DNA of 64,000 nt from Sedimentibacter sp. SX930 (GTDB taxonomy: Bacteria; Bacillota; Bacilli; Lactobacillales; Aerococcaceae). The stretch is taken from assembly GCA_002155105.1 (NCBI GenBank), contig MUZD01000001.1:496001-560000 (forward strand). The letters are read 5' to 3'. Position numbers and translations under genes: made by a program. This document shows positions 1,620-43,700 of the stretch, piece after piece. The notes below the pieces were generated by a model. The model saw nothing but the letters and a program-made list of their open reading frames with translations. It did no database searches and was not told where the DNA came from. How positions within the stretch are numbered: position 1 is the stretch's first letter; the number at the start of each line of letters is the position of its first letter.

Positions 1620-1625
1620 AACTAT

Positions 1626-4586: not shown

Positions 4587-4620
4587 GACCAGCCAGACTA
4601 ATTTCAAACCGGATAACAAA

Positions 4621-4668: not shown

Positions 4669-4721
4669 GGTGAAACGTCGGGAGTGTTGTGCCTTGCTCC
4701 CGAAGGTATCGATCACTTGGA

Positions 4722-5498: not shown

Positions 5499-5530
5499 CT
5501 TCTATTCCTCCTGAATGATTTATGTTTCGA

Positions 5531-6304: not shown

Positions 6305-6318
6305 TTTGCCCACCTTCC

Positions 6319-6567: not shown

Positions 6568-6903
6568 AGAGCAGCCTCCTTTTTCTGTTATCTGTAATAT
6601 TTTACCATACTGGAGCGAGCGAATCACAAGGAAGAGGGCCGGAATGCGTGTCCAAAAAATGAAGAAGGATTCTTTCCGGCAGACAGATATGTAACAAAGC
6701 TCTTGCAAATTGATTAAATTGTAAATTTTTTCATAAACTTGTGTTAAAATAGCATGAACAGGTGCGGAAACGCTTTTGGTTAAATTTTGATTAGTTAATG
6801 ATTAAAAAAATATAATTAATTGCTGCCGCTTACTTATTTGATACAAATCGGCATCAAGTGATGTTAGAATGGACTACATAAATAAAATTAGTGGGTGAAA
6901 TGC
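6568..6903. other. Intergenic region between divergent genes
   Basis: It separates the small membrane protein gene (minus) from murB (plus). A TGNTAAAAT extended -10-like element lies at 6742-6750 on the plus strand. GGAAACGCTTTTGG just downstream resembles a cre site with about two mismatches. No RNA gene or terminator is recognised. Confidence 0.4.
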
Positions 6904-7818: not shown

Positions 7819-7917
7819 GTGAAAAGAAGGCTGGGTGCGAACATTCAGCTCTTTTTTGAATAGCACTTAATTATTTTTTTATTATTTTTTTGAATATATA
7901 ATGAAGGAGGATAGTCC

Positions 7918-9621: not shown

Positions 9622-9641
9622 TGATAATCCCTTTAAGCTCC

Positions 9642-9674
9642 AAACGCCGGAATGATCATTTCTGGCGTTTTTTG
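9642..9674 (+). terminator. Intrinsic terminator after the ECF-type ATPase
   Basis: AAACGCC pairs with GGCGTTT around an inner palindrome AATGATCATT, followed by T residues. It makes the ATPase gene monocistronic. Confidence 0.85.
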
Positions 9675-9821
9675 TTCGTATTTTTGCTGAAAATGATGCT
9701 ACTTCTTATATAATAATAGTGTTTTGTGCTAACATAATAGTGATGAGTGAATATCCGATTGCCTATCCGCAATCGGAGTGATCGTTCAGCGCCCACAAAT
9801 AAACGATAAAGGCGGGAGAAA

Positions 9822-10910
9822 ATGACTGACAAACCGATCATTACTTTAGAGAATGTAAAAAAAGTATACGATGATGAAACTGTATTGCACGATATTAGCT
9901 TTGAACTTGAAAAAGGTAAATTTTACACACTTTTGGGACCATCCGGCTGCGGGAAGACGACTATTCTGCGTTTGATTGCCGGCTTCGCGGACGCTACGGA
10001 AGGCATCATCAAAATCAATGGCGAAACGGTGAATGACATACCGGCGAACCGTCGCAAAGTCAATACCGTTTTCCAGGACTACGCATTGTTCCCCCATATG
10101 AATGTTTTCGATAACATCGCATTCGGGCTGACGATCAAAAAAATGCCCAAGGACCAGGTCAAGCTGAAAGTTGAGGAAGCCCTGAAAATGGTTCAACTTG
10201 AGGGCTATGAGAACCGTGAAATCAGCGAAATGTCGGGCGGCCAGCAACAGCGCGTTGCAATCGCCAGGGCCATCGTCAACGAACCGGATGTGCTGCTGTT
10301 GGATGAACCGTTGTCGGCTTTGGACTTGAAGCTGCGCACGGATATGCAGTACGAACTGAGGGAACTGCAGCAGCGTCTGGGCATCACCTTCATTTTTGTT
10401 ACGCACGATCAGGAAGAGGCGTTGGCCATGAGCGATTGGATTTTCGTCATGAACAAAGGCGAGATTGTCCAGAGTGGCACACCTGTGGATATTTATGATG
10501 AACCGATCGACCGTTTCGTCGCAGATTTCATCGGCGAAAGCAATATCGTTCCGGGGAAAATGGTTGAAGATTACAAAGTCAGCTTCGTCGGCAAGGAGTT
10601 CGAATGTTCCGATGCGGGAATCACGCCGGGCGAAAAAATCGAAATCGTCATCCGTCCGGAAGATCTGGAGTTGACGACTGTCGAAAACGGCAAACTGGTC
10701 GTGAACATCGATACGCAGCTGTTCCGCGGTGTCCACTATGAGATCATCGGCTACGACAAGGACGGAAACGAGTGGATGATCCATTCCACCAAGCGTGCGG
10801 AAATCGGCAAGGATGTCGGGCTCCATTTCGGTCCGCAGGATATCCATGTCATGCGTCTGGGCGAATCCGAAGAAGAATTCGATGCCCGTCTCGAAAGTTA
10901 TGAAGAGTAG
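9822..10910 (+). CDS. potA: Spermidine/putrescine ABC transporter ATPase PotA
   Basis: PotA energises polyamine import by the PotABCD complex at the membrane. The 362-residue product has Walker [10 protein letters not shown] near residue 38-46, Q-loop [11 protein letters not shown], signature MSGGQQQR, Walker [13 protein letters not shown] and switch THDQEEA. A C-terminal TOBE domain, with the [11 protein letters not shown] signature, matches the family. The gene starts a four-gene run: potA ends 12 bases before potB and the later genes overlap by 4 bp. Upstream, about 150 bp separate it from a terminator and hold its promoter. Confidence 0.95.
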
Positions 10911-10922
10911 GGGGGAAGAGAC

Positions 10923-11738
10923 ATGACGAAAAATTCTAGAGCGTTTTATTCTGTTCCTTACGTGCTGTGGTTGGGGTTGTTTGTCCTCGCGCCGATGCTG
11001 TTGATCCTGTATCAGTCCTTTTTCGACATCACCGGGTCCTTAACGTTTGCCAACTACGCGACCTATTTCAGCTCGGGAAATTATCTGCGGATGACGATGA
11101 ATTCGTTCCTTTATGCGTTCATCATCACTCTCGTGACGTTCCTGATCAGTTACCCGACGGCGCTGTTCCTGAGCCGGACGCAGCACAAGCAACTTTGGCT
11201 GTCCTTAATCATTCTGCCGACATGGATCAATCTCTTGCTGAAGGCGTATGCATTCATCGGTTTGTTCAGTCAGAGTGGTACGGTCAATCAATTCCTTGGC
11301 TTCATGGGCATAAGTCCCCAACAGATCCTGTTCACGGACTTCAGTTTCATTTTCGTGGCGGCCTACATCGAGCTGCCTTTCATGATCCTGCCGATCTTCA
11401 ATTCGATCGAAGAGCTGAACCCGTCCTTGATCGTAGCAAGCGAGGACTTGGGTGCGACAAGGATGCAGACTTTGACTCGGGTCATCTTTCCTTTGACGAT
11501 GAGCGGCGTGCGCAGTGGCTTTCAGGCCGTCTTCATTCCGTCGTTGTCGCTGTTCATGCTGACGCGTCTGATCGGCGGAAACCGGGTAATCACGCTGGGA
11601 ACCGCAGTTGAGCAGCATTTTCTCGTCACCCAGAACTGGGGGATGGGATCGACGATCGGCGTCATTCTGATCATCAGCATGATTGCCATCATGTCCCTGA
11701 CGAGTGACAAAAAGAAGAAAGGCAGGCGAGCCAAATGA
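10923..11738 (+). CDS. potB: Spermidine/putrescine ABC transporter permease PotB
   Basis: A 271-residue inner-membrane permease with about six hydrophobic helices; the first begins near residue 10 (VPYVLWLGLFVLAPMLLILY). The cytoplasmic EAA loop that docks PotA reads ASEDLGATRMQTLTRVIFP around residues 175-193. ATG 10923 follows a GGGGGAAGAG site. The stop codon overlaps the potC start by four bases (ATGA), which implies coupled translation. Confidence 0.94.
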   Translation: MTKNSRAFYSVPYVLWLGLFVLAPMLLILYQSFFDITGSLTFANYATYFSSGNYLRMTMNSFLYAFIITLVTFLISYPTALFLSRTQHKQLWLSLIILPTWINLLLKAYAFIGLFSQSGTVNQFLGFMGISPQQILFTDFSFIFVAAYIELPFMILPIFNSIEELNPSLIVASEDLGATRMQTLTRVIFPLTMSGVRSGFQAVFIPSLSLFMLTRLIGGNRVITLGTAVEQHFLVTQNWGMGSTIGVILIISMIAIMSLTSDKKKKGRRAK

Positions 11739-12586
11739 AGACAACAGCCAACACGAAGTGGAACAATGCCTTCCTTGCGCTTGTTTTCGCCTTGCTGTAC
11801 CTGCCGATTTTTTATCTGATTTTTTATTCGTTCAATGCCGGCGGGACCATGAACAGCTTCACCGGCTTCACCTGGGAGCATTACCAAGCCGTTTTTGAGG
11901 ATACGCGCTTGATCGGCATCGTCTTGAACACATTTTTGGTGGCTTTGCTTTCGGCCCTCAGCGCGACTGCAATCGGTACGATGGGTGCAATCTTCATTTA
12001 TTACACAAAAAAACGCAGCACCAAAAATGCGCTTCTGAGTCTTAACAACGTGTTGATGGTTTCCCCTGACGTCATCATCGGGGCGAGCCTGTTGATCCTT
12101 TTCACGTTGCTCGGCTTTTCGCTGGGATTCTCTTCGGTGCTGCTGTCGCACATCGCTTTTTCGATTCCGATCGTCGTGCTGATGGTACTGCCGAAGCTTT
12201 ATGAGATGAATGATTCGATGATCAGTGCGGCCCAGGATCTGGGCGCCAGCTCCGGCCAAGTGTTCAGCAGAATCCTGATCCCGAGTATCACTCCAGGGAT
12301 CCTGAGCGGTTTCTTCATGGCCTTCACCTATTCCTTGGATGATTTTGCGGTGACCTTTTTCGTGACGGGGAACGGCTTCACCACTTTGGCGGTGGAAATC
12401 TATTCGCGGGCCCGCCGTGGTGTCAGCCTGGAAATCAATGCGCTCAGTGCGCTGATGTTCCTGTTCACGCTGCTGTTGGTCTTGGGCTACTATTTCATTC
12501 AACAATACGGGCACAATAAACGGGCGCAACAATTAAAGGCGATTGGAAAACGCGCCGGTTCGGATAAGGCGGTGAAGCGCGGATGA
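11735..12586 (+). CDS. potC: Spermidine/putrescine ABC transporter permease PotC
   Basis: The second permease, 283 residues, forms the heteromeric channel with PotB. Six hydrophobic segments are visible from NAFLALVFALLYLPIFYLIF on, and the EAA loop reads AAQDLGASSGQVFSRILIP. The C-terminus is basic and cytoplasmic. It overlaps potB and potD by four bases on each side (ATGA). Confidence 0.94.
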   Translation: MKTTANTKWNNAFLALVFALLYLPIFYLIFYSFNAGGTMNSFTGFTWEHYQAVFEDTRLIGIVLNTFLVALLSALSATAIGTMGAIFIYYTKKRSTKNALLSLNNVLMVSPDVIIGASLLILFTLLGFSLGFSSVLLSHIAFSIPIVVLMVLPKLYEMNDSMISAAQDLGASSGQVFSRILIPSITPGILSGFFMAFTYSLDDFAVTFFVTGNGFTTLAVEIYSRARRGVSLEINALSALMFLFTLLLVLGYYFIQQYGHNKRAQQLKAIGKRAGSDKAVKRG

Positions 12587-13653
12587 AAAAATTAATGGGA
12601 ATGGCGGTTGCTGTGCTGCTTGCTTGTGCAGTCATCGCTTTCGGAATAAACTCCTTGAACAGATCGCAAGGTTTTTCGGATGGGAATACGCTGACGATTT
12701 ACAACTGGGGCGATTATATCGAACCGGAGCTGATCACAAAATTCGAAGAGGAGTCCGGGTATAAAGTTTCTTACGAAACGTTTGATTCGAACGAGGCGAT
12801 GTACACCAAAGTCAAACAGGGCGGAACGGCCTACGATCTGAGTATCCCTTCGGAGTACATGATCGACAAAATGGCTGAAGAGGGCTTGCTGATCGAACTG
12901 GACCATTCGAAGATCGATGGTCTGGAGAATATCGATCCGCGCTTCCTGGATTTGCCGTTCGACGAAGGCAACAAATACTCTATCCCTTATTTCTGGGGAA
13001 CCTTGGGCATCATCTACAACGACAAAATGGTCACGGAAGAGATCACTTCCTGGTCCGATCTGTGGGATCCGAGCTATGCGAACAGTCTGCTTCTGATCGA
13101 CGGGGCGCGTGAAGTAATGGGGCTGGGCCTCCAAAGTGAAGGCTACTCGCTGAACGAAACCGACCCGATGATCTTGACTGAGATTGCGGAGAAATTGAAG
13201 GACATTACGCCGAACGTCAAAGCGATCGTTGCCGATGAAATCAAGATGTACATGATCCAGGAGGAGGCGGCCATCGCCGTGACTTTCTCCGGAGAAGCCA
13301 GCGAGATGCTCTGGGAAAACGAAAATCTCCATTATGTGATCCCGGAAGAAGGCTCCAATCTGTGGTTCGACAATATCGTCATACCGAAGACCGCAAGAAA
13401 TATCGATGGCGCTTATGCCTTCATCAATTTCATGCTGGAACCTGAAAATGCTGCAATCAATGCGGAATACGTCGGCTACGCCACGCCGAACCAAACCGCC
13501 ATCGAGCTGATGGATCCCGAGATCACCAGCGACGAACAGTTTTATCCTTCCGACGAAATCATGGACAAACTCGAGGTCTACGAAAACCTGGGCGCCAAAA
13601 CCCTGGGAACGTACAATGATCTATTTCTTGAAATCAAGATGTTCCGGAAATAG
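12583..13653 (+). CDS. potD: Polyamine-binding protein PotD
   Basis: A 356-residue periplasmic-type binding protein that delivers spermidine or putrescine to PotBC. One hydrophobic N-terminal segment (residues 5-22) contains LLAC, a possible lipobox. Because hydrophobic residues continue after the Cys, an uncleaved membrane anchor is also possible. The mature part opens with TLTIYNWGDYIEPELI, and FDSNEAMYTKVKQGG, DLSIPSEYMIDKM and PYFWGTLGIIYN are family hallmarks. It is the last gene of potABCD. Downstream hairpins at 13688-13773 and a terminator at 13906 end the operon. Confidence 0.94.
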   Translation: MKKLMGMAVAVLLACAVIAFGINSLNRSQGFSDGNTLTIYNWGDYIEPELITKFEEESGYKVSYETFDSNEAMYTKVKQGGTAYDLSIPSEYMIDKMAEEGLLIELDHSKIDGLENIDPRFLDLPFDEGNKYSIPYFWGTLGIIYNDKMVTEEITSWSDLWDPSYANSLLLIDGAREVMGLGLQSEGYSLNETDPMILTEIAEKLKDITPNVKAIVADEIKMYMIQEEAAIAVTFSGEASEMLWENENLHYVIPEEGSNLWFDNIVIPKTARNIDGAYAFINFMLEPENAAINAEYVGYATPNQTAIELMDPEITSDEQFYPSDEIMDKLEVYENLGAKTLGTYNDLFLEIKMFRK

Positions 13654-13687
13654 AGGAAACGATGAATCCCACTCTAGAAATCGAGCA

Positions 13688-13773
13688 CTAAGAGGATATT
13701 ACGAGAACGGTCGCTTTTTGACCGTGACGTAATATCAGCTTAGGCACTCAAACGTCACAGTGCGACGTTTGAG
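13688..13773 (+). other. Two strong hairpins in the potD 3' region
   Basis: Hairpin 1 (13688-13743) is a three-tier stem: CTAAG/CTTAG, ATATTACG/CGTAATAT and ACGGTC/GACCGT, separated by small internal loops. Hairpin 2 is CTCAAACGTC/GACGTTTGAG (13747-13773). Neither has a long T run. They could stabilise the pot mRNA or belong to a small RNA ending at the terminator near 13933. Confidence 0.6.
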
Positions 13774-13905
13774 GTCTTTAACATTCTTTGTACCAAGGCT
13801 AGAGATGCATGTTCTATTAGGGATTCAGAGTTCGACTATAAGGATACGATGAATTGCGGGTAGGGGATAAGCTAACATTTTTAGTGTCAGTATTCTAATT
13901 TTCTT

Positions 13906-13933
13906 CAAAAAGCGGCTGAGAAGTCGCTTTTTG
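13906..13933 (+). terminator. Terminator-like hairpin downstream of potABCD
   Basis: CAAAAAGCG (13906-13914) pairs with CGCTTTTTG (13925-13933). The T-rich 3' arm supports termination. Confidence 0.7.
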
Positions 13934-13947
13934 TGTGGAGAAAAATA

Positions 13948-13978
13948 TTGACTTAATCTTAAGGTTAAGAGGTAAGCT
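13948..13978 (+). promoter_or_regulatory. MerR-type promoter with 19-bp spacer and internal dyad
   Basis: TTGACT (13948-13953) and TAAGCT (13973-13978) are 19 bp apart, too far for ordinary sigma-A use. The spacer holds the near-palindrome CTTAATCTTAAGGTTAAG (13952-13969). This is the layout of MerR-family activators, which twist the DNA to align the two boxes. No merR gene is nearby. Confidence 0.65.
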
Positions 13979-14021
13979 TGCATAGAAACATACTAGAATT
14001 TCATTTAAGCGAGGCGGGATA

Positions 14022-14525
14022 ATGAGAAAGAGAATCTTGCTAACTTTCATGCTCTTCGCAGTTGGTCTATTAGCCGCTTGCTTTAGACAAACTTTTGAAA
14101 GAGGTGAGATAGATTTGAACTCAGGACTACAGATTAACCAATCGTCAGAAAATGGTATTGAGACTGGAGGAGATAAAATGCAGATACAAATTCAAGATAA
14201 CGCGCATACTGTTGTATTTATGCTAAATAATAGTGTTGCGGCAGGATCACTCTATAAGCAGCTTCCGTTGAAAATAATGGTGGAGAATTATGGGAACAAC
14301 GAAAAAATATTTTATCCGCCAACGAAACTGAATACCAGTAACACTCCAAGTGCAGAAGGCCCCGCTGGGACACTTGCGTATTTCGAACCATGGGGAAATG
14401 TTGTCATGTATTATGGCAGCTTTGGACGTTATCGGGGGTTGTATGATTTGGGAATAGCTGTTTCAGGGGGAGAACATATCAGAGAATTGACAGGGGAAAT
14501 ATCTGTTACCAAGGTTTCTGATTGA
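14022..14525 (+). CDS. Cyclophilin-like fold lipoprotein
   Basis: A 167-residue exported lipoprotein: signal MRKRILLTFMLFAVGLLAAC with lipobox LAAC and Cys20. The mature part from about residue 53 (MQIQIQDNAHTVVFMLNNS) through PEGPAGTLAYFEPWGNVVMYYGSF-like text (seen as EGPAGTLAYFEPWGNVVMYY) and LYDLGIAV matches the cyclophilin-like fold family. Its members often occur beside MerR-regulated oxidoreductases. True prolyl isomerase activity is not established for this family. The MerR-type promoter just upstream suggests stress- or effector-dependent expression. Codon use is somewhat more AT-rich than neighbours. Confidence 0.75.
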   Translation: MRKRILLTFMLFAVGLLAACFRQTFERGEIDLNSGLQINQSSENGIETGGDKMQIQIQDNAHTVVFMLNNSVAAGSLYKQLPLKIMVENYGNNEKIFYPPTKLNTSNTPSAEGPAGTLAYFEPWGNVVMYYGSFGRYRGLYDLGIAVSGGEHIRELTGEISVTKVSD

Positions 14526-14660
14526 AATCAGTTGGAGTGTATTGGTTTGGCAGCCGCACTCACAATATACTCAAAAAGTCTGTCGAAGAAATTCCGCTTC
14601 ACAATCCGCGCAAGGTTGTGCTATCATTAAAATAAGATTAAAAAGAAAGAAGGTAATCTC

Positions 14661-15038
14661 TTGACTAAATTCATCAGTACGGAAAAAGCGCCTGCAGCGA
14701 TCGGGCCTTATTCGCAAGGAACAAGAAAGAACGGCTTCATCTTCTCATCCGGACAATTACCGATCGATATGGAAACGAAAGAGCTTGTGACTGACCCTGC
14801 AGCAGCGACAACAGCCAGCCTGAACAATGTTTTGACGATCGTCAAAGCAGGCGGCGGATCGTTGGAATCGATCGTGAAAGTCAACGTGTTCGTGAAGGAC
14901 ATCAATGATTTTGACGCCATCAACGGCGCTTACACTGCATTCTTCGGCGAACATAAACCAGCCCGTTCATTGGTGCAGGTGGCCGCTTTGCCGAAAGATG
15001 CCATCATCGAAATCGAAGCCATCGCAGGAAAAGACTGA
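14661..15038 (+). CDS. ridA: RidA family 2-iminobutanoate/2-iminopropanoate deaminase
   Basis: RidA hydrolyses reactive enamine/imine intermediates released by PLP enzymes such as serine and threonine dehydratases. The 125-residue product shows the family start KAPAAIGPYSQG, SGQLPID, the internal KVNVFVKDINDF and the end PARSLVQVAALPKDAIIEIEA, including the substrate-binding Arg. The start is TTG 14661, with AGAAGGT upstream. It lies beside the serine dehydratase genes on the opposite strand, a functionally sensible neighbourhood. Confidence 0.95.
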   Translation: MTKFISTEKAPAAIGPYSQGTRKNGFIFSSGQLPIDMETKELVTDPAAATTASLNNVLTIVKAGGGSLESIVKVNVFVKDINDFDAINGAYTAFFGEHKPARSLVQVAALPKDAIIEIEAIAGKD

Positions 15039-15046
15039 TACTAATA

Positions 15047-15094
15047 AAGAAGAACGGCTATCTCACCTTTGGAGAAAGCCGTTCTTCTTTTATT
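15047..15094 (+). terminator. Intrinsic terminator after ridA
   Basis: AAGAAGAACGGCT pairs with AGCCGTTCTTCTT and is followed by T residues. Confidence 0.88.
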
Positions 15095-15114
15095 TGACAG
15101 GACTGTGTTCGGGA

Positions 15115-15245
15115 TGTCCGATTCATGCGGGTTATCGGACAAGTTTAGATCTGGACGTGTTCGGGATGTCCGATTCATATGAGATATCGGACAACAATCG
15201 ATCTGAATGTGTACTGTATGTCCGATTCTTCCGCTTTATTAGACA
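15115..15245. repeat. Tandem hairpin array, TGTCCGAT family (3 units, 52-bp period)
   Basis: Three 27-bp hairpin units begin at 15115, 15167 and 15219, exactly 52 bp apart. Each has TGTCCGAT at the left and ATCGGACA at the right (third unit ATTAGACA). Spacers of 25 bp share GATCTG and TGTTCGGGA-like text. The same family occurs at 55316-55394. Confidence 0.8.
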
Positions 15246-15311
15246 TTCCTAGCATTGATGTGGATGCAGCACGATGAATCTCAGGTCAATCAATTAGGAG
15301 AGAGGCGCCCG

Positions 15312-16250
15312 CTATTCGAATGGATTCGCTTTGACCGGTGGCTGATCATCCACCCATTCCGGCTTGACCTCCAGCTGCTGCCCGAAGATCATCATTTTCA
15401 GGCGGACGCCTTCACGGGTGGCTGCAAGGCCGCCCAAGCCGGTTTCGCGCAGGGAGGCCGGAAGGGTTTTCCCGACTTTGCGCATCGCTTCGATCACATC
15501 GTCGGCGGGGATTTTGTTCGTCAGCCCGGCCAAGGCCATATCGGCGCTGATCAAGGCGTTGACTGCACCGATCGCATTGCGCTTGACGCAGGGTATTTCC
15601 ACCAGTCCGGCAACCGGGTCGCAGACGAGGCCGAGCAGATTGCTGATGGCCATCGCCATCGCTTCCGATGCCTGCTCTGGCGTGCCACCCGCGATTTCGA
15701 CGGCCGCGGCTGCTGCCATCCCGGATGCACTCCCGACTTCGGCCTGGCAGCCTCCAGCGGCTCCCGCGATCATGGCATTGTTGGCGATCACCATGCCGAA
15801 CCCGCTGGCGCAGAAGAGCATTTGGACCATCTGCTCCTCCGTCAGCCCAAGCTTGTCCTTGATCGCGAACATCACACCGGGCAAAGTCCCCGATGAACCG
15901 GCAGTCGGAGTGGCGCAGATGATGCCCAACGAAGCGTTGACTTCGTTCGTGGCGATGGCGCTCTCCACTGCGATCAGCAGGTCATCGCCTGAAAGGGTAT
16001 TGCCGCGTTGGCGGTAGTTCCGCAGTTTCACGGCTTCGCCGCCTGTCAAACCAGTGGGGGAAAATACGCCATCGCCAGTTAAGCCTTTTTCGACTGCGGC
16101 TTTCATGACGTGGTAATTGTTGCGCATCTGTTCCCAAATATCCTCGCGCGTCCGGTGGCTCTTGGCCATTTCCTGCAGCAGCATCAATTCGGAAATCGGT
16201 TTGCCGCTTTCCTCCGCGGCAGTAACCAGTTCTGCAATCTTATTGTACAA
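15312..16250 (-). CDS. sdaAA: L-serine dehydratase, iron-sulfur-dependent, alpha subunit
   Basis: SdaAA and SdaAB form the [4Fe-4S] enzyme that deaminates L-serine to pyruvate and ammonia. The 312-residue alpha subunit has the cluster cysteines and neighbours in ICATPTAGSSGT, GGCQAEVGSASGMAAA and VCDPVAGLVEIPCVKRN. It starts at TTG 16250 with AGAAGGA upstream. It lies 18 bases after sdaAB on the same strand, forming an operon. RidA, which removes the iminopyruvate side product, is encoded nearby on the other strand. Confidence 0.95.
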   Translation of the reverse strand: MYNKIAELVTAAEESGKPISELMLLQEMAKSHRTREDIWEQMRNNYHVMKAAVEKGLTGDGVFSPTGLTGGEAVKLRNYRQRGNTLSGDDLLIAVESAIATNEVNASLGIICATPTAGSSGTLPGVMFAIKDKLGLTEEQMVQMLFCASGFGMVIANNAMIAGAAGGCQAEVGSASGMAAAAAVEIAGGTPEQASEAMAMAISNLLGLVCDPVAGLVEIPCVKRNAIGAVNALISADMALAGLTNKIPADDVIEAMRKVGKTLPASLRETGLGGLAATREGVRLKMMIFGQQLEVKPEWVDDQPPVKANPFE

Positions 16251-32967: not shown

Positions 32968-33129
32968 TATAGAATAAATTTCGCGATGAAATGGATGCCA
33001 GAAAATCAGCCGCAATCGAATGATAAATTACAGATTGTTTATTGATATGCTTAGAATATAGGCCAGTATGACACCTTTGCACTTAGGATTGCGGAAGCGA
33101 TTCGGAATAATAACGCAAAATTATTTGGT

Positions 33130-33281
33130 AAAGAAATCGCTTGATGCCTGCTTGGGCACTTATCGCTTATGATGTATTGGACAATAATATTGTCCGACGT
33201 ATTATAAATGAAATGACAGCACATCAACCGTGTAGTATATGACATTTCGATCACGCCACCAATGACTATCGAGTGGGAGTA
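33130..33281 (+). pseudogene. guaA: Decayed duplicate of the guaA 3' end
   Basis: The stretch reads like the last ~50 codons of guaA with frameshifts. One frame gives YDVLDNNIVRRIINEM, matching [15 protein letters not shown]; a shifted frame gives HINRVVYDISITPPMTIEWE, matching [20 protein letters not shown]. The final 14 bases repeat exactly those of intact guaA. It lies 3.2 kb downstream of guaA, just beyond the manganese operon. The likely origin is a displaced chromosomal 3' end left by integration of an element into guaA, now degenerate. No integrase gene remains. Confidence 0.8.
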
Positions 33282-33345
33282 TAACAGAATGAATTGCGAT
33301 TCTAACTTATACGCATAGATAAAATCTTCAAAATATAATGCTCTC

Positions 33346-33387
33346 AACCCCTGTCAAACTTAAATCAATTTGACAGGGGTTGTTTTT
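33346..33387 (+). terminator. Hairpin terminator beside the reverse transcriptase gene
   Basis: AACCCCTGTCAAA (33346-33358) pairs with TTTGACAGGGGTT (33369-33381), followed by GTTTTTA. A plus-strand terminator; on the minus strand it follows the large RT gene but lacks a long T run. Confidence 0.8.
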
Positions 33388-35404
33388 AATATTCACTAGT
33401 GCTATCTATTTTGGCCATGTTTGAACTTTTCTTTACTATTTTTCTAATGAAAGTATCCGTTTGGGTATTCCAATCATAATAAGAATAGCGAGTAATAGAT
33501 TCCCACATTTCAAGTTGAGCATGTCGAACTTCTGGTGTTCCTTTTATCGTTGATTTGTATTCTCTCATCAATAATTTGTTGTATTTGGTAATCTGACTAT
33601 TTCTAAACCCTGGATATTTTGAAAAATCATTCAAAAAATAGAAAAATTCTCCTTCTAATATACGGTGCGTTGCTCCTTTTTCACTATAATTATTAATATT
33701 AGAATCTATTATTGAACTTAGTTTGTTAACAACTGTTATATATTTATTATCAATACTATTCAATTTTTCATCTAAGATGTAGTATGCAATGCTACAACAA
33801 ACAAAATATGACTCCTTATGCATAGTTAAAATTTCACAAAGAAAATTGGCAGATAATTTTTTTTCAAATAGTTTCATAAAAATTAGAATATCATACATAC
33901 TGTCAATTGAAATCATATTATTTTTGAGAACACTAAATAAATGTTGGAACATTTTTTCATTTAAATATTCAATAGACTCCAGTTTCTTTTTTTGTAACAA
34001 TAAATCTCTGATGTCTGTTTCATCTTTATGGGTTTTTAAATCAATAAGAGCAATACTTAATTCAAGTTCTTTCTTCTGACTTTCCATTTGCTTAAACAAT
34101 TTGATGTAAATAGAAATCAAATAAGATGTACTTTTCGAGTTTATCTCTAAAGTAAAAATATTTGAAACAATTTCTAAAATATTAGCGATTATAAATTTGT
34201 GTTTGGGGTTACCGTCAAAAAAAATAGATGAACGAATGGTTTTTAAAAAATAATTAATTATTCTCGTCTTAGATTCATTATGATTCGAAATTAAGTTTTC
34301 CATTTTGTAAAAAAGGTCATCCCACTGACTTAATTTCCCTTTATACTTATCATAATCTATTCCAATTTTCATAGATGCCAACATTTTATCAAATTCAAAT
34401 TCTTTTAATATTTTTTTTAATGAAATGATAGAATTGTCATATATTTCAAAAGGTTTTTCTTGTAAGGCTGTTTTCCCGATGTTTAAAGCTAAATTATACT
34501 TATCTAATTCAATTTTTAAAAATTGTTCGATTAATTCTATATCTTTTTTATTCTTTGCGAATATAAAGTAATCATCAATAAATCTGTAGAGAGAGTAATC
34601 TTTCTTGTGCTCTAAATTTTGCTCCTTTGTGAATTGATAAAGATTCACATCTATTCTAGTGAGTAGTAATTCTGCAATTACACGTGAAAATTCGGGTCCC
34701 ACAACTAGTCCGTGTGTTTCATTGAAGTTAATTCTTTGGGAAATGGAATCACTTGCATTTGGAAAGGTATATTTATATTTTTTTTCTTTATACTTTTTAG
34801 CTAAAGATTTTTCTCCAAAAATAGCCCAAGCAAGAGAATGAGTATATATACTCGGAAAACACCTTTGAATGTCTAATTTTAGGAAATAGTTGTACTTGTA
34901 TTTGTCTCTGTTAAATTTTATAGAATTATATAAACCTGTAATTTTTTTGTGTTTATTATACGAAAAATAATTATAAAATAATATTTGATCCTCATCGCTG
35001 GTCACTGATAATTTATCAGAGAAATTGTACTCTTCCTCTATTTTCTTTATTTCTTTCTTCTTCAGAATAACATCTTTGAATTTTGGGATATTTCTCTTAA
35101 TTGGTGATCGAACACTGTATGGGGAATTTTTACAAAAAGAAATAATCAATTGTTCATATCGTAAAATGTAGTTAAATGCTTGGATTTGAGCTATAGGGTG
35201 AAGTAAACCAATCTTCCTTTTTTCATCTTTTGATTTTGGTATATAAAAGAAAAATGGTACGGTAACAAAATTCAAGACATTATCTATATTTAATATTTCA
35301 TCCATTCTTTTTTTTGTAAAATTCAAATATACAGCTTTATTTGAAAAAAGAACTGGTATCTCTTCAGGAAGTGTGTCTGTTCTCAAAAATAAATTCTTTT
35401 TCAT
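33386..35404 (-). CDS. Large reverse transcriptase, DRT type 3 (Drt3b/UG8-like)
   Basis: A 672-residue AT-rich gene for a reverse transcriptase. Motif A is FLKLDIQRCFPSIYTH with Asp178, a motif B-like HGLVVGPEFSRVIAELLL lies at 231-248, and motif C is YRFIDDYFIF with Asp277-Asp278, so the catalytic aspartates are kept. The C-terminal ~350 residues are Lys/Ile-rich and helical, without a known domain; no integrase, maturase-HNH or nitrilase part is seen. A second RT is encoded divergently 0.3 kb away. Two RTs plus a structured RNA is the composition of defence-associated RT type 3 (UG3 + UG8). The large one fits UG8/Drt3b by length. An Abi-type RT is the main alternative. The promoter is at 35482-35511 (minus). 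Confidence 0.78.
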   Translation of the reverse strand: MKKNLFLRTDTLPEEIPVLFSNKAVYLNFTKKRMDEILNIDNVLNFVTVPFFFYIPKSKDEKRKIGLLHPIAQIQAFNYILRYEQLIISFCKNSPYSVRSPIKRNIPKFKDVILKKKEIKKIEEEYNFSDKLSVTSDEDQILFYNYFSYNKHKKITGLYNSIKFNRDKYKYNYFLKLDIQRCFPSIYTHSLAWAIFGEKSLAKKYKEKKYKYTFPNASDSISQRINFNETHGLVVGPEFSRVIAELLLTRIDVNLYQFTKEQNLEHKKDYSLYRFIDDYFIFAKNKKDIELIEQFLKIELDKYNLALNIGKTALQEKPFEIYDNSIISLKKILKEFEFDKMLASMKIGIDYDKYKGKLSQWDDLFYKMENLISNHNESKTRIINYFLKTIRSSIFFDGNPKHKFIIANILEIVSNIFTLEINSKSTSYLISIYIKLFKQMESQKKELELSIALIDLKTHKDETDIRDLLLQKKKLESIEYLNEKMFQHLFSVLKNNMISIDSMYDILIFMKLFEKKLSANFLCEILTMHKESYFVCCSIAYYILDEKLNSIDNKYITVVNKLSSIIDSNINNYSEKGATHRILEGEFFYFLNDFSKYPGFRNSQITKYNKLLMREYKSTIKGTPEVRHAQLEMWESITRYSYYDWNTQTDTFIRKIVKKSSNMAKIDSTSEY

Positions 35405-35431
35405 AATTACCTCACTATCTTAATAGCTTTC

Positions 35432-35460
35432 TTGATATAAGAAACAAATTAGTATAGAAT
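35432..35460 (+). promoter_or_regulatory. Plus-strand promoter of the RT-system RNA and small RT
   Basis: TTGATA (35432-35437), 17 bp, TAGAAT (35455-35460). The start would fall near 35467, just before the structured RNA. Confidence 0.7.
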
Positions 35461-35466
35461 TCTATA

Positions 35467-35660
35467 TATAATATGTTTCATATTATACACTAGCTTCCTT
35501 GTAGTGCTCAATGAGCATTACAATTCCAACCTTGATGAGAAATCAGAAAGCGGGACGGAATACACACACGATGGCTACTCAACTTATTTGTAGCCAAATG
35601 CCAGTTATTGGCATTCACTCCTCATCTTGCTCTGCAGATGAGGAGAAGGAAGCAAGTAAT
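35467..35660 (+). ncRNA. Structured RNA of the two-RT system with ACACACAC tract
   Basis: The stretch between the plus promoter and the small RT is more GC-rich than both RT genes and packed with stems. A long-range closing stem GCTTCCTT/AAGGAAGC (35493-35500/35646-35653) encloses TGCTC/GAGCA, GGCTAC/GTAGCC (35573-35595), AATGCCA/TGGCATT (35597-35615) and CTCCTCATC/GATGAGGAG (35618-35645). ACACACAC (35562-35569) lies in an unpaired segment before the three hairpins. DRT3 systems are described as carrying a non-coding RNA with an AC-repeat template copied into poly(GT). This segment fits that role. The reading frame through it (from ATG 35511) has no ribosome binding site and no resemblance to RT N-termini. 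Confidence 0.75.
35482..35511 (-). promoter_or_regulatory. Minus-strand promoter of the large RT
   Basis: On the minus strand TTGAGC (35511-35506), an 18-bp spacer and TATAAT (35487-35482). It overlaps the transcribed region of the divergent RNA, so the two promoters may interfere. Confidence 0.65.
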
Positions 35661-35675
35661 AGAGGTGATATCGTA

Positions 35676-36797
35676 TTGAAAAAAATACCAAATTTAAATA
35701 AAATAAACGACGGAAAACGACTTTATTACAATCCAAATTCAAATGAAAAAGCAGTGTTTAATAATATTAAAAAAGAATTTGAAGGAAAATTTAATATCCA
35801 ATTAACTAGTAGGGACCTTATTATTAAACAACTTATTGCCACTCTGACTCATGGAGACTACATAAATTATTCTATTCCAGATATCAATCTGGTTATTATC
35901 CGCTCTGATATCAAAAATTTTTACCCTTCAATTAATAAACATGAACTATATAGAAAAATATCCAGAACCAATATCTTATCGAATTCTACAATTGAAATAC
36001 TCAAGCCTATGTTTTTTTCTAAATCAGTTCTTGGGGTGCCCTTAGGACTACCTTTTTCTAGTGTTTTAGCAGAAATATATTTAGAACGCTTCGATCTTGA
36101 TATATATTCTAATTTTACTCCAACTTTCTATTTTAGATATGTAGATGATTTAATAATTATCAAATATGACATGATAACAAAGTTGGACCTTGAAACTGAA
36201 CGGAAATGTTTGGAAGGAATTTTTGCGAAACATTCATTAACAATTAATCGTTCAAAAACAAATGTTACCAGCTATTTTGGTAATAGCGAGTTATCTTTTA
36301 ACTATCTTGGATATCAATTTAATTTAAGGGGTGGCAAATTAATAATAAGTATCTCTGAAGAAAAAATTTTAAAAATTGAGAACAAAATAAAACAGCACTT
36401 TTATACTTTTAAGAAAAGTAATCGTTCGAGGAAACAGTTTTGGATACTTTATTACAAGGTTATGAATAGCATATACGGAATAACATCAGTCGATAAAGGC
36501 GGCAAAATTATGCATTTCGGCCTAGGCTATTCCTACCGATTTATAAATGATGAAAACCAGGTGATAGAACTAATTAAACTAGTAAAAGGGTTAATTTTTT
36601 CTTGTAAATTATCTTCAAACCAAACATCAACTTTATTGCATCTTGTCTCTTATGAAGGTGAAGCTATAAAAATTCTCCAGAAAAGATATGATTATACCGC
36701 TTTATCAGCAAAACAAATGTCGAAAATAAAAAATAGATTATGTTTAGGGACTAAAAGCTGTAATATAAGCCGGATATTTTATGTAATATATAAATAA
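35676..36797 (+). CDS. Small reverse transcriptase, DRT type 3 (Drt3a/UG3-like)
   Basis: A 373-residue reverse transcriptase. Motif A is IRSDIKNFYPSINKHE (Asp78), motif B GVPLGLPFSSVLAEIYL (120-136), motif C FRYVDDLIII (Asp157-Asp158), followed by INRSKTNV and a motif D/E region FNYLGYQFNL. TTG 35676 is preferred as start: AGAGGTGAT lies upstream at proper distance, and the 55 codons before it coincide with the structured RNA. The gene is very AT-rich, unlike neighbours, which suggests horizontal transfer. It is transcribed away from the large RT, with the RNA in front of it. A UG3-type (Drt3a) role, copying the RNA template, is inferred. Confidence 0.78.
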   Translation: MKKIPNLNKINDGKRLYYNPNSNEKAVFNNIKKEFEGKFNIQLTSRDLIIKQLIATLTHGDYINYSIPDINLVIIRSDIKNFYPSINKHELYRKISRTNILSNSTIEILKPMFFSKSVLGVPLGLPFSSVLAEIYLERFDLDIYSNFTPTFYFRYVDDLIIIKYDMITKLDLETERKCLEGIFAKHSLTINRSKTNVTSYFGNSELSFNYLGYQFNLRGGKLIISISEEKILKIENKIKQHFYTFKKSNRSRKQFWILYYKVMNSIYGITSVDKGGKIMHFGLGYSYRFINDENQVIELIKLVKGLIFSCKLSSNQTSTLLHLVSYEGEAIKILQKRYDYTALSAKQMSKIKNRLCLGTKSCNISRIFYVIYK

Positions 36798-36997
36798 GAA
36801 TTCAATGCATCCAAATAATGTTTGGTGATTATTTTATGGCTAAAATTTACTTTTGTCTGTGATTATAATTAAATTTCGGCAAAAGCATTTTTATATGTAT
36901 GCTAATGACAATTAAATTAGTAAATATAAAAGTTAATAGAAAGGAGATCTCTTTTTGACATCTTCTGAAATTATCGTCGATATGAAAGGAACCTGCA

Positions 36998-37942
36998 ATG
37001 ATCTCATCAACGGAATTCAGATACCCATCAGGTGATGAAAGGAAAATTTTCGCGATGAAATGGTCGCCGGAAGGTCTTCAGAAACCGAAAGCGGCCGTCC
37101 AGATTGCGCATGGTTACGCAGAACATATCGGACGCTATGATGCTTTTGCAAGCAAACTGGCGGAAGCAGGGATAGTCGTCTACGGAAATGATCATCGTGG
37201 CCATGGCAAAACGAACAGGAATTTAGGCGAAGCAATCTGTTTTGCGGATGAGGCTGGATTCGATAAGGTCGTCGCGGATATGCGAGCGCTGGCTGAAATC
37301 ATCCAAACAGAAAATCCCGGCATTCCGCTGTTGCTTTTCGGCCACAGCATGGGCTCGATGTTGACCAGACGCTACATCCAACTGTACGGGGGAGATCTTG
37401 CTGGCGCAATTCTGTCAGGTTCAGGTGTGTTTTCGAATGCCTTGCTGAAACTTGGGACAGTCGTGGCAGTTTCGGAAATCAAAAGAAATGGTCGCGCCCA
37501 TCCAAGTCGTTTGCTGGACAAACTGGTCTTCCAGAACTTCAACCGGGGTTTCAAGCCCGCTCGGACGGATTTGGATTGGATCAGCCGGGACCCAGTGGAA
37601 GTGGATAAATTTCTGGCGGATCCGTTGCGCGGAAAGATCGGTTCGGCCGGTTATTTCCATGATTTTTTCAGCGGATTGCTGGTAATGAATAACGTCGATA
37701 ACATCCAATCGACACCGAAAGACCTGCCCCTGCATTTCATTTCAGGCACCGCTGATCCGGTTGGAGGCAAGGACGGAAAAGGTATCGTCCAAATATGCAG
37801 GGCCTATCAACAAGCTGGCCTTCTGAATGTAAGCTGCAAACTATATGAGGGTGCCCGCCATGAACTGCTGAACGAGATGAACAAAGACGAAGTAGCGCAA
37901 GACATAATCGAGTGGATTTTTGCTCGTTTGGAATCCCTTTGA
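36998..37942 (+). CDS. Lysophospholipase-like alpha/beta hydrolase
   Basis: A 314-residue serine hydrolase of the monoacylglycerol lipase/lysophospholipase group. AHGYAEHIGRYDAFASKL and VYGNDHRGHGKTN are characteristic. The nucleophile is in GHSMGS, the acid probably in GTADPVGG and the His in GARHELLNE. AAAGGA precedes ATG 36998. It lies just beyond the AT-rich RT genes with normal base composition. The substrate is not known. Confidence 0.88.
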   Translation: MISSTEFRYPSGDERKIFAMKWSPEGLQKPKAAVQIAHGYAEHIGRYDAFASKLAEAGIVVYGNDHRGHGKTNRNLGEAICFADEAGFDKVVADMRALAEIIQTENPGIPLLLFGHSMGSMLTRRYIQLYGGDLAGAILSGSGVFSNALLKLGTVVAVSEIKRNGRAHPSRLLDKLVFQNFNRGFKPARTDLDWISRDPVEVDKFLADPLRGKIGSAGYFHDFFSGLLVMNNVDNIQSTPKDLPLHFISGTADPVGGKDGKGIVQICRAYQQAGLLNVSCKLYEGARHELLNEMNKDEVAQDIIEWIFARLESL

Positions 37943-41031: not shown

Positions 41032-41167
41032 CTCTTATTAATAGCCGTTGAGACGAGGGGTCGAAGATACGGTGGCAAACCAATCAATCTAATTTTTTTT
41101 CAGTACAGATTGATATTGGGTGCCCAACCTGAGCGTAGGATTATCCAAGTCCTATGAGCAATAAGAG
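41032..41167 (+). promoter_or_regulatory. SAM-I-like riboswitch candidate upstream of speA
   Basis: A four-helix fold is visible: P1 CTCTTATT/AATAAGAG (41032-41039/41160-41167), P2 CCGT/ACGG with inner GAC-GAGGG-GTC, P3 CCAATCAATCT with AGATTGATATTGG (41080-41090/41107-41119) and P4 TAGGA/TCCTA. The joining segments TGGCAAACC and GGTGCCCAACC stand where SAM-I aptamers have CGGCAACC and GGTGCCAATTCC. The P2 loop GGG could pair with CCC at 41123-41125 as a pseudoknot. Because P2 details differ from SAM-I, it may be a variant with another ligand. The 3' strand of P1 can compete with the terminator, which predicts ligand-induced shut-off. Confidence 0.62.
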
Positions 41168-41189: not shown

Positions 41190-41219
41190 AAGCTTTCCTT
41201 TGGTTGGAGAGCTTTTTTT
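41190..41219 (+). terminator. Riboswitch-controlled terminator before speA
   Basis: AAGCTTTCC (41190-41198) pairs fully (one G-T) with GGAGAGCTT (41206-41214), followed by T residues. GAGGAAAAGC at the end of P1 could pair with GCTTTCC and form the antiterminator. Confidence 0.8.
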
Positions 41220-41253
41220 ATGCCCATTTTTTATATCAAAGGGGGAAATCTAT

Positions 41254-42795
41254 TTGGCTGAAAAGGTTTTATTCAATTCAGACACTTATTTGGAAGGTCA
41301 TTCCGATAAAATTACTTACCAAATTTCTAACGTTAAAGCAAAAAATATTACACATATCAAAATGCCGCTTTTCGAAGCGCTTGTTAAATATGCGAAACAG
41401 GACGTTACGCCTTTCGATGTCCCTGGACATAAAATGGGTGCGCAGATGACGCCATTTAAAATGGCAGTCGGTGATATGACGATGCAGATGGATGTCAACT
41501 CCATGAAAGAATTGGACTTGTTGAGCCATCCGCAATCCGTCATAAAAGAAGCACAGGAATTGGCTGCAAAAGCATACAATGCCGATCAAGCCTTTTTCTT
41601 GGTGAACGGCACGACAGTTGGCATCCAAGCGATGATCATGAGCGTTGTGGGACCGAACGATACAATCTTGGTTCCCCGCAACTGCCATAAATCAGTAATG
41701 AACGGGTTGATCCTGAGCGGCGCAAAGCCGATCTTCATCCAGCCCGAAATGGATTTGGCCTTCGGAATTTCCCATGGCATCTCCGTGGAACGCATCATCA
41801 AAGGCTTGGATGAAAATCCTAAAGCGAAAGCTCTTTTGGTCACTTATCCGACTTATTTCGGTTCTTTGAACGATTTGGAAACGATCTGTGATATCGCGCA
41901 CGAACGCGGTGTTGTGGTCATCGTCGACAGTGCGCACGGAGCGCATTTGCCGTTCATGCCTGGAAAAATGAAGGATCCGATGAAAGCAGGAGCCGATGCG
42001 GTGACTTATTCCATGCACAAAACCGGCGGATCCTTGACGCAAAGTTCCTTGATGGTGATGCAAGGGGATCGCATTTCCGCTACAAAATTACAAAAAGTGC
42101 TGAACATGCTGCAATCGACCAGCGCGAATTACTTGTTGATGAGCTCCATCGATGCTGCACGCAGCGAATTGGCGATGTACGGCAAAGACCGCTACAAGAA
42201 ACTGCGCCCGATCGTCAGCGAAGCGATTGAAGCGATCGAAGCATTCGGCGACTATGAAGTATTGAAATCCGACTACATCAAAGATAAATTCTACCAAACT
42301 TATGACTGGACTAAATTAGTGATCCGTGTCAATGATATCGGCCTGACCGGCTTCGAAGTCTACACGATCATGAAGGAAGAATATGGCATCCAATTGGAGC
42401 TGGCTGAAGGCTACGTCGTGATGGCAGTCATCAGCACAGCAGATACGCGCGAATCGATCGGAAGACTGGTTGATGCCTTGATGGATGTCCGCAGATGCTA
42501 CAAAAAAGAAAGCCAACATTTCGATGCGCACGTGATGACTTGCAGCATCAATGAATTGGCCTGCAGCCCGCGCGATGCCTTTTATGCCGACAATGAAGTG
42601 GTCAGCATAGATGACGCGATCGGCCGCATCAGTGCCGACTCGATCATGATCTACCCGCCAGGAATTCCGTTGATCATTCCCGGTGAAGTGATTTCTGAGG
42701 CAGTCGTGCAGCATTACCACTACTACAATGAAACCTTAGGCAACGTCCTGACTGAGGAAAAAATGCCTCATCAGATTAAAGTCCTGAAAGACTAA
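41254..42795 (+). CDS. speA: Arginine decarboxylase (aminotransferase-fold, PLP)
   Basis: A 513-residue Orn/Lys/Arg decarboxylase of the short, wing-domain-free group to which Bacillus SpeA belongs. FDVPGHKMG near residue 53 and SMHKTGGSLTQSSLMV with the PLP lysine are diagnostic; VDSAHGAHLPF holds the cofactor Asp. The adjacent agmatinase gene (47 bp later) makes arginine the likely substrate: arginine to agmatine to putrescine. TTG 41254 is the likely start, with AAGGGGGAA upstream. An extra ~40 residues precede the usual SpeA start. Expression is probably set by the leader fold and terminator upstream. Confidence 0.88.
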   Translation: MAEKVLFNSDTYLEGHSDKITYQISNVKAKNITHIKMPLFEALVKYAKQDVTPFDVPGHKMGAQMTPFKMAVGDMTMQMDVNSMKELDLLSHPQSVIKEAQELAAKAYNADQAFFLVNGTTVGIQAMIMSVVGPNDTILVPRNCHKSVMNGLILSGAKPIFIQPEMDLAFGISHGISVERIIKGLDENPKAKALLVTYPTYFGSLNDLETICDIAHERGVVVIVDSAHGAHLPFMPGKMKDPMKAGADAVTYSMHKTGGSLTQSSLMVMQGDRISATKLQKVLNMLQSTSANYLLMSSIDAARSELAMYGKDRYKKLRPIVSEAIEAIEAFGDYEVLKSDYIKDKFYQTYDWTKLVIRVNDIGLTGFEVYTIMKEEYGIQLELAEGYVVMAVISTADTRESIGRLVDALMDVRRCYKKESQHFDAHVMTCSINELACSPRDAFYADNEVVSIDDAIGRISADSIMIYPPGIPLIIPGEVISEAVVQHYHYYNETLGNVLTEEKMPHQIKVLKD

Positions 42796-42842: not shown

Positions 42843-43700
42843 GTGAAAAATAACATGAACATCCAGACCTTTATCGGCTGCGAATCTTCATTTGAAGAAG
42901 CAACTACCGTATTATTCGGGATCCCATTCGACGGAACAACCAGTTTCCGGCCAGGCACGCGTTTTGCCATGCAGGCAATCCGCCAAGATTCATTCGGCTT
43001 GGAAAGTTATTCCCCTTATTTGGATCGTGATCTGGAAGAAGAAGCCATCCATGATGGCGGAGATCTGGATCTGCCTTTCGGCAACACAGAGCGCGTATTG
43101 AGCGATATTGCAACCTATACAAAAGAAGTATTAGACAATGGCAAGAAATTTCTGATGGTCGGCGGCGAGCACCTCGTGAGCCTGCCTACCATCGAGGCTG
43201 CCTATGAAAAATACCCAGATCTGCATGTCATCCATATCGATGCCCATACAGATCTGCGTGAAGACTACATGGGAGAATCCTTGTCGCATGCTTCGGTCAT
43301 CCGCCGCTGCTTCGACTTCCTGGGAGACGGCCGCATTTTCCAATTCGGCATCCGTTCCGGTTTGAAGGAAGAATTTGAATGGGCGAAAGAGCACACTTAT
43401 ATGGAGAAATTCACCATCGATACGTTGCCGCAGATAGTGCAGCAATTGAAGGATGTTCCCGTTTATGTGACAATCGATCTGGATGTATTGGACCCAGGCA
43501 CTTTCCCTGGAACAGGCACACCTGAGCCGGGCGGCATCACCTACAAGGAATTGTTGGCGGGTATCGTTGCGTTGCAGGACTTGAACCAGATTGTTTCAGC
43601 CGACGTCGTGGAGCTTTCTCCGCAATACGATCCGTCAGGTGCTTCGACTGCTATGGCCTGCAAGACCGTCAGAGAAATGCTGTTGACACTTACTAAATAG
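42843..43700 (+). CDS. speB: Agmatinase
   Basis: A 285-residue binuclear manganese ureohydrolase that splits agmatine into putrescine and urea. Metal-binding motifs are GGEHLVSLP, HIDAHTDLR and TIDLDVLDPGTFPGTGTPEP. GTG 42843 is the start, with GGAGG upstream. It follows speA in the same operon and is closed by a terminator. The putrescine made can also be imported by PotABCD encoded earlier. Confidence 0.94.
   Translation: MKNNMNIQTFIGCESSFEEATTVLFGIPFDGTTSFRPGTRFAMQAIRQDSFGLESYSPYLDRDLEEEAIHDGGDLDLPFGNTERVLSDIATYTKEVLDNGKKFLMVGGEHLVSLPTIEAAYEKYPDLHVIHIDAHTDLREDYMGESLSHASVIRRCFDFLGDGRIFQFGIRSGLKEEFEWAKEHTYMEKFTIDTLPQIVQQLKDVPVYVTIDLDVLDPGTFPGTGTPEPGGITYKELLAGIVALQDLNQIVSADVVELSPQYDPSGASTAMACKTVREMLLTLTK

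Follow-up and report, generated by a model that had tools for sequence, protein, structure and literature searches.

The 64,000-nucleotide stretch of DNA analysed here, positions 496,001 to 560,000 of contig MUZD01000001.1 of Sedimentibacter sp. SX930 (assembly GCA_002155105.1) and referred to below as the window, very probably encodes a complete anti-phage system of defense-associated reverse transcriptase type 3 (DRT3), predicted from sequence and arranged in a divergent, Bacillota-type layout. Two reverse transcriptase (RT) genes, drt3b and drt3a, point away from each other on either side of an intergenic region that holds a predicted non-coding RNA (ncRNA) with the repeat template of DRT3 (Table 1). 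In the DRT3 system of Escherichia coli (EcoDRT3), drt3a and drt3b share an operon, and the ncRNA is located downstream of DRT3b (PMC13174585, PMC13314766). Poly(dTdG) is synthesized there by Drt3a on the template ACACAC; Drt3b, primed by its residue Y666, produces poly(dCdA), and E22 and R241 act as its gates. RecBCD restrains the duplex, and the phage protein Gam triggers abortive infection (PMC13174585). The window resembles EcoDRT3 (PDB 26cz, 9z6y/9z6z) in combining Drt3a, Drt3b and a single ncRNA with ACACAC in a loop, and in the selectivity and priming residues of Drt3b as well as the catalytic aspartates. In contrast to EcoDRT3, the window has divergent genes with the ncRNA in the gap as a leader of drt3a; the run of alternating A and C (AC run) is 8 nucleotides (nt) long, and the host has AddA with no RecB above the cut-off. 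The window proteins are 18-27% identical to the same-strand rows compared. The EcoDRT3 operon layout with a downstream ncRNA is not found in the window, and we take this layout as typical of DRT3 rather than as defining it.

Table 1. Predicted features of the DRT3 cassette and its surroundings; positions refer to the window, except in the last two rows, where they refer to the locus named
Feature	Position	Strand	Remarks
Inserted segment (approximate limits)	32968-37014		Absent from eight of nine relatives read
Worn guaA 3' end	33153-33281	+	78% to the final 129 nt of guaA in the window, E 6e-23
14-bp perfect hairpin, terminator-like by eye	33345-33382		Between guaA tail and drt3b
drt3b (UG8, Class 1) RT	33386-35404	-	672 amino acids (aa), open frame
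Putative AT-rich divergent promoter region	35437-35486		Inverted repeat with GAAACA/TGTTTC, arms 35437-35451 and 35469-35483, 87% complementary
TATTAT	35481-35486		Possible -10 element of the ncRNA
DRT3 ncRNA (predicted limits)	35489-35657	+	Closing helix around five stem-loops
Closing helix	35489-35500/35646-35657		12 nt, 92% complementary
ACACACAC, predicted poly(TG) template	35562-35569	+	Unpaired (0.98), directly 3' of stem 35523-35527/35557-35561
drt3a ribosome-binding site GAGGTG	35662-35667	+	Within the 18-nt space between RNA closing helix and TTG
drt3a (UG3, Class 2) RT	35676-36797	+	373 aa, TTG start
guaA island, L169 (G457)	800-12900		~29- or 41-nt guaA-end repeat at far side
guaA island, L166 (G466)	4150-16200		~29- or 41-nt guaA-end repeat at far side

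The two reverse transcriptases

Both RT frames are intact in the list of open reading frames (ORFs) with translations, both proteins match the Pfam family RVT_1 above its cut-off, and both contain the catalytic motifs (LDIQRCFPSI and YRFIDD in Drt3b, SDIKNFYPSI and FRYVDD in Drt3a). The GC content across the two genes is 0.25-0.30, compared with 0.40-0.51 on either side. Drt3b was matched best by the PADLOC model Drt3b (1.9e-125; runner-up Drt6, 3.7e-48), and a profile built from 32 sequences (A7) matched the solved Drt3b proteins of PDB entries 9z6y_H (4.8e-208) and 26cz_A (6.7e-196). Likewise, the best PADLOC match of Drt3a was Drt3a (1.1e-74; runner-up RT_UG17, 6.3e-31), and the corresponding profile of 32 sequences (A8) matched 9z6y_A at 3.7e-121, followed by DRT9 at 5.1e-24. 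A preliminary description of this DNA had reported two divergent RTs of 672 and 373 residues with catalytic aspartates, more AT-rich than their neighbours, and had likened them to the UG3 and UG8 RTs of DRT type 3; its coordinates and motifs were correct, as was its remark on composition, and the identification of Drt3a/UG3 and Drt3b/UG8 is borne out by PADLOC, by the names of the NCBIfam models and by the profile matches. Placement among retrons or group II introns, which it had named as a result that would speak against DRT3, was not observed, the best models being neither retron nor intron RTs.

In the PADLOC, Pfam and NCBIfam scans Drt3a was taken as a 428-aa frame that is open from an alternative ATG at 35511 in the ORF list, and the PADLOC match opens 10 residues before the TTG. 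We rejected this longer start, which lies within the structured RNA, and relatives begin at the equivalent of 35676, where TTG, GTG or ATG serves as the start codon in the same place. AlphaFold2 models of the two proteins, calculated as monomers, had mean predicted local distance difference test (pLDDT) values of 88.4 for Drt3a and 86.3 for Drt3b; the C-terminal half of the latter is helical and its last ten residues score below 50. In Foldseek comparisons with a library running to 8 April 2026, where no DRT3 entry was among the 50 matches listed, the Drt3a model came closest to DRT9 (query template modelling score, TM-score, 0.58) and the Drt3b model to UG15, DRT4, DRT6, AbiK and AbiP2 (query TM-scores 0.38-0.48).

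In a phmmer alignment to 26cz_A, where a tag offsets residue numbering by 108 (775 less 667), E22 and R241 of EcoDRT3 correspond to E15 and R241 of the window protein, and Y666 falls in the final column, which is occupied by Y672. Drt3b of the window keeps E15, R63, D178, F183, R241, D277 and D278 in addition to this terminal tyrosine. The same seven residues are present in all 16 divergent Drt3b proteins, and 13 of the 16 have a tyrosine within their last two residues (L019 is cut by a contig end). Judging from these alignments, the predicted Drt3b has the residues for selection of dA and dC and the priming tyrosine of DRT3.

The intergenic RNA

On the drt3a strand, the region 35440-35680 folds with -83.7 kcal/mol (z -8.47), a value that none of 200 shuffles reached. 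Among four aligned sequences (window, L015, L016 and L159) both-sided changes were found in 12 of 52 pairs, compared with 5.9 in shuffled alignments, none of 500 being as high, and the count fell to 1-5 when the alignment was slid; with Lysinibacillus L018 added as a fifth sequence, in an alignment fitted to the model, such changes were found in 24 of the 52 pairs. Moreover, the covariance model R1, built from the four sequences, recovered the left-out L018 (E 1.8e-7) with the template in register. All 15 divergent intergenic regions whose limits were set by hand contained an AC run of at least 5 nt (shuffle mean 2.95, maximum 9), and ten of them a run of at least 6 nt (shuffle mean 0.34, maximum 3); the 8-nt run of the window is exceeded only by that of L159 (9 nt). 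In 11 of these 15 loci the unpaired value of the template is 0.8 or above, and the fold z-scores of the 15 range from -2.0 to -8.0, the window being the lowest. For the subgroups beyond R1, the RNA is supported by the individual folds and the AC run. Taken together, the predicted RNA carries the ACACAC template in a loop as in DRT3. That DRT3 comes with an ncRNA had been mentioned in the preliminary description, and a strongly folded RNA with the DRT3 template, a point absent from that description, is indeed present between the genes.

In all 12 loci measured (L020, L180 and L182 lie outside this set) the closing helix of the RNA stops 9-24 nt ahead of the drt3a start, and therefore the RNA is in effect a leader of drt3a; in L163 the closing helix contains the Shine-Dalgarno sequence. 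The terminator scan of the window listed no terminator-like site between the ncRNA and drt3a. The 18-nt distance in the window, together with a ribosome-binding site that adjoins the closing helix, would also suit a structure that is solely a regulatory leader of drt3a, similar to a riboswitch or attenuator, with the true template RNA located elsewhere, as would the result that no Rfam family was found at the intergenic RNA at gathering thresholds in the scan of the window. We regard this explanation as very unlikely, since (AC)n is the known template of Drt3a, is unpaired beside a stem and occurs beyond chance in 15 of 15 regions, and since ACACAC was found downstream of drt3b in none of the 16 divergent loci with enough sequence. 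The intergenic RNA may be both template and leader. Marginally less probable again is a dead or silent DRT3 relic of a past island: the cassette does stand beside a worn guaA tail and, by eye, there is no integrase among the adjoining ORFs, but neither frame is interrupted, the residues for catalysis, gating and priming are in place, and the fold z-score of its RNA is the lowest among the 15 loci.

Distribution of the divergent layout

Relatives were retrieved by Drt3b alone, and Drt3a was located beside Drt3b in 119 of the 134 loci obtained; the remaining 15 were left out as they had no partner ORF of at least 250 aa, in some cases because of contig ends or broken frames. The scan of genome contigs contributed the best 80 of 404 confirmed loci, the other 324 being less window-like. 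The 119 pairs comprise 102 same-strand and 17 divergent ones, and all 17 divergent pairs are from Bacillota. Besides the window, the latter come from Enterococcus, Lysinibacillus, Halobacillus, a Lactobacillus metagenome-assembled genome, two plasmids and eight genomes of the same order as the window, which is also the order of Enterococcus, and they include near-copies (L005/L187 and L016/L017). Same-strand pairs also occur in Bacillota, namely in G629, of the same order, and in an Erysipelothrix phage.

The location of ACACAC differed between the two layouts. In divergent loci it was found upstream of drt3a in 12 of 17 cases and downstream of drt3b in none of 16; on the opposite strand, taken as a control, the respective counts were 1 of 17 (the window itself) and 0 of 16. 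Of the same-strand loci, 6 of 102 had it upstream of drt3a and 87 of 100 downstream of drt3b (opposite-strand controls 4 of 102 and 5 of 100, respectively), and in these 87 loci the median distance from drt3b to the AC run is 119 nt. The predicted RNA has changed place along with the gene order: it follows drt3b in the same-strand layout and precedes drt3a in the divergent one.

Trees were built by a quick method with support from the Shimodaira-Hasegawa-like approximate likelihood ratio test (SH-aLRT) only, and they contained 66 of 110 pairs, nine truncated or duplicate rows having been removed and same-strand pairs thinned. Fifteen of the 16 divergent loci formed one group, with an SH-aLRT support of 100 in the Drt3b tree and 99 in the Drt3a tree. 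Halobacillus L020 is the exception, and its placement is uncertain: uniting all 16 loci in one clade gave a p-value of 0.37 in the approximately unbiased (AU) test, and L020 stands at the base of the divergent group together with three same-strand phage-type loci on long branches, for which the tree program gave a warning. That the window contains a one-off inversion or an assembly error of an ordinary same-strand DRT3, as the 102 same-strand pairs among 119 could suggest, is hardly credible in view of the 16 other divergent pairs, the AC run of at least 5 nt in 15 of 15 gaps tested and the grouping of 15 of 16 loci in both trees. Two unrelated RTs (retron, group II intron, diversity-generating retroelement or Abi) as chance neighbours, to which weak general RT matches such as group_II_RT_mat (5.3e-18, Drt3a frame) might point, can practically be dismissed, since for each protein the DRT3 model scores over 40 orders of magnitude better than the runner-up, the two genes are adjacent in 119 of 134 loci and the same divergent group is found in both protein trees. 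The preliminary description had considered the divergent order a possibly unusual arrangement of such a system. This order is shared across a Bacillota branch rather than peculiar to this genome. The finding that the description had named as contrary, relatives occurring alone without the partner, did not materialize given the frequency with which Drt3a adjoins Drt3b.

The occurrence of Drt3b is rare and patchy. Matches with E of at most 1e-40 were obtained in 1 of 398 genomes sampled across the phylum, 1 of 76 of the family and 8 of 395 of the order, the last count including the window genome as well as G716, which has a lone RT. At 1e-50, four related families yielded 3 of 105, 1 of 29, 4 of 301 and 3 of 245 genomes, which are partly shared with the count for the order. 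The lone RT of G716 (L164), a 571-aa protein with a weak Drt3b match and no Drt3a, was excluded from DRT3. A single-protein scan of viral contigs gave no match, and an alignment query of the viral contigs gave 32 loci, six of which (L121-L126) are weak RT matches without Drt3b.

Several relatives depart from both common layouts or from the expected phylogeny. The phage-type same-strand pairs L009/L120 (Erysipelothrix phage SE-1; 5987 in L009), L010 (3894) and L119 (4885) have no ACACAC on the coding strand near the genes; on the opposite strand it occurs in the gene gap of L010 (run of 6) and L119 (run of 9) and about 0.1 kb behind drt3b in L009 (run of 7). These pairs may represent a third layout with a predicted antisense ncRNA. 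L181 and L182, probably from Lactobacillaceae, combine the absence of the priming tyrosine with intergenic regions containing only ACACA, and they may use another priming residue or another place for the RNA. In addition, L158, a same-strand DRT3 in G629 (85% complete), groups with Bacteroides and Prevotella in both trees, as would result from transfer or contamination.

Evidence weighing against the assignment

A number of observations count against a complete DRT3 system with a common mode of action and a common RNA. In NCBIfam, Drt3b and Drt3a are the top models for the respective proteins but remain below their cut-offs (282.1 bits versus 350 for Drt3b, 169.1 bits versus 200 for Drt3a). 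The Drt3b proteins of L181 and L182 have no C-terminal tyrosine, so that not every member of the group need work as stated. As to the RNA, its limits and helix ends were placed by eye, and one of five covariation measures was weak (19 further pair types versus 16.0, matched by 63 of 500 shuffles). Model R1 misses the RNAs of L005, L019, L020, L160, L163 and L178-L182 and so does not establish one clade-wide RNA family; R1 stops short of the lactobacillus and G711-type groups, and the MAFFT alignment of the lactobacillus sequences was poor. Five of the 15 divergent intergenic regions (L019, L020, L180, L181 and L182) contain only ACACA, and L182 has a longer AC run (7 nt) downstream of drt3a instead. 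Fold z-scores are weak (-2.0 to -2.9) in L182, L179, L018 and L160, and the template is less than 0.8 unpaired in four of the 15 loci. With regard to the host nuclease, AddA was found at 1414.7 bits (cut-off 707.65), and no RecB was above the cut-off in the host genome, where the best match (240.2 bits versus 696.05) falls on the AddA gene itself; this absence of RecB rests on a curated cut-off in a genome that is 98% complete.

Proposed mechanism

By analogy with the published E. coli system, the predicted system would be expected to form the same products and a Drt3a:Drt3b:ncRNA complex of 6:6:6, and to act by abortive infection. A leftward transcript from the intergenic region would carry drt3b, and a rightward one would carry the ncRNA and, immediately after it, drt3a. 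The promoters and the co-transcription of ncRNA and drt3a are presumed; promoter-like hexamers in the AT-rich stretch were no more frequent than by chance (28 found, 24.4 expected in the promoter scan). Drt3a would bind the ncRNA and repeatedly copy the unpaired ACACACAC into poly(dTdG), and Drt3b would prime on its own C-terminal Tyr672 without a nucleic-acid template and alternate dC and dA, gated by E15 and R241, after which the poly(dTdG) and poly(dCdA) strands would anneal to a repeat duplex. As in E. coli, a host exonuclease would keep the repeat DNA low until a phage disables the exonuclease, and accumulation of the DNA would then halt growth. In a host with AddA but without a RecB above the cut-off, the RecBCD guard cannot apply unchanged, and the guard here would presumably be AddAB.

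More tentatively, and with rather more doubt than confidence, we propose that the template RNA serves as 5' leader in the mRNA for the polymerase that copies it, that RNA folding or binding of Drt3a switches drt3a translation, and that an AddAB guard replaces RecBCD. If so, the ratio of RNA to enzyme would be fixed by autoregulation, and the Bacillota loci would constitute a DRT3 subtype distinct in regulation and trigger, the proteins of which, in the window, fall below the standard NCBI model cut-offs.

Relation to known systems

Drt3b and Drt3a of Enterococcus hulanensis (L015) are 66% and 59% identical to those of the window. The gene order and the intergenic AC run of the window are common to the plasmids L005, L187 and L188 and to E. 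hulanensis, E. dispar, E. canis and Lysinibacillus sphaericus (L015-L018). The Class 1 RTs DRT4, DRT6, AbiK and AbiP2 have folds like the Drt3b model, but they are single-RT systems. DRT6, AbiK and AbiP2 synthesize random-sequence DNA and are not known to use an ncRNA. DRT4 is described as producing DNA of random sequence without an ncRNA (PMC13213688). DRT9 and DRT10 employ a Class 2 RT and, like Drt3a, perform ncRNA-templated repeat synthesis (PMC13174585); unlike DRT3, they have no second RT and make other products, such as poly-dA in the case of DRT9.

Adjacency of UG3 and UG8 has been reported at 97% and 90%, orientation not being given in the accessible part of that source (PMC8934634). 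In the literature searched, including the available text of PMC13314766, PMC13213688 and PMC8934634, we found no description of a divergent DRT3, and an earlier mention is possible. The seed of the published DRT3 covariance model came from the 250 nt that follow EcoDRT3-like operons, and the covariance search later spanned 1 kb either side of DRT3b homologues (PMC13174585); since this search covered both sides, divergent loci may have been in that pool. The mechanistic work on DRT3 considered here concerns the E. coli system; in DRT3, double-stranded repeat DNA arises from two differently templated polymerases. The Gram-positive branch would serve as a natural experiment for telling essential elements (template, gates, priming tyrosine) from dispensable ones (gene order, RecBCD guard). 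For such loci our analysis supplies a covariance model and a sequence set, and it includes plasmid-borne pairs of Lactiplantibacillus and Pediococcus (L005, L187 and L188) that are labelled only 'RNA-directed DNA polymerase' in gene tables.

Insertion and origin

The cassette lies within a segment that relatives do not have. In eight of nine congeners read, the matches to the genes for the substrate-binding protein and the hydrolase are 144-173 bp apart, compared with about 4 kb in the window; the ninth, L173, has no match to the hydrolase start. Similarly, a search for Drt3b at 1e-40 was negative in the other 12 genomes of the genus, two of which are only 51-63% complete. The insert begins with scraps, followed by the worn guaA tail, the 14-bp hairpin and drt3b. 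The hairpin has a 10-nt loop, above the limit of the terminator scan, and is therefore not listed there. At two related divergent loci, the end of drt3b is situated behind an intact guaA, at about 0.15 kb in E. hulanensis L015 and about 0.3 kb in G484 (L159), with a similar hairpin, by eye, between guaA and drt3b; at the other divergent loci no guaA was found within the available flanks. In contrast to L015 and L159, the window cassette is away from guaA, yet carries a piece of it. Moreover, in two congeners the 3' end of guaA adjoins an island of about 12 kb, the first gene of which encodes a tyrosine integrase. Given the remnant of the guaA tail, the position of L015 and L159 at guaA and the islands of the congeners, guaA looks like a used integration site in the genus, and the cassette most likely derives from such a site, as far as the sequence comparison indicates. 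A guaA integration scar and a mobile origin had both been suggested in the preliminary description; the former agrees with the match to the window's own guaA end, and the latter gains support from the empty sites in relatives and the two related loci at guaA.

Two further observations concern these insertions. A 28-nt scrap at 32976-33003, just past the substrate-binding-protein gene, is 86% identical (E 1.4e-5) to the start of the downstream hydrolase gene; this tentative match may mark an earlier insertion. In the island of L169, six of eight scanned proteins had no Pfam match.

Other features of the window and genome

A third RVT_1 protein is encoded in the same genome (G000:C8:22001-22615). 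Elsewhere in the window, an S-adenosylmethionine (SAM) riboswitch was found at 41032-41167, exactly at the gathering score, ahead of a 531-aa ORF (41200-42795), which we take to resemble an Orn/Lys/Arg decarboxylase and which is followed by a presumably agmatinase-like ORF (42843-43700).

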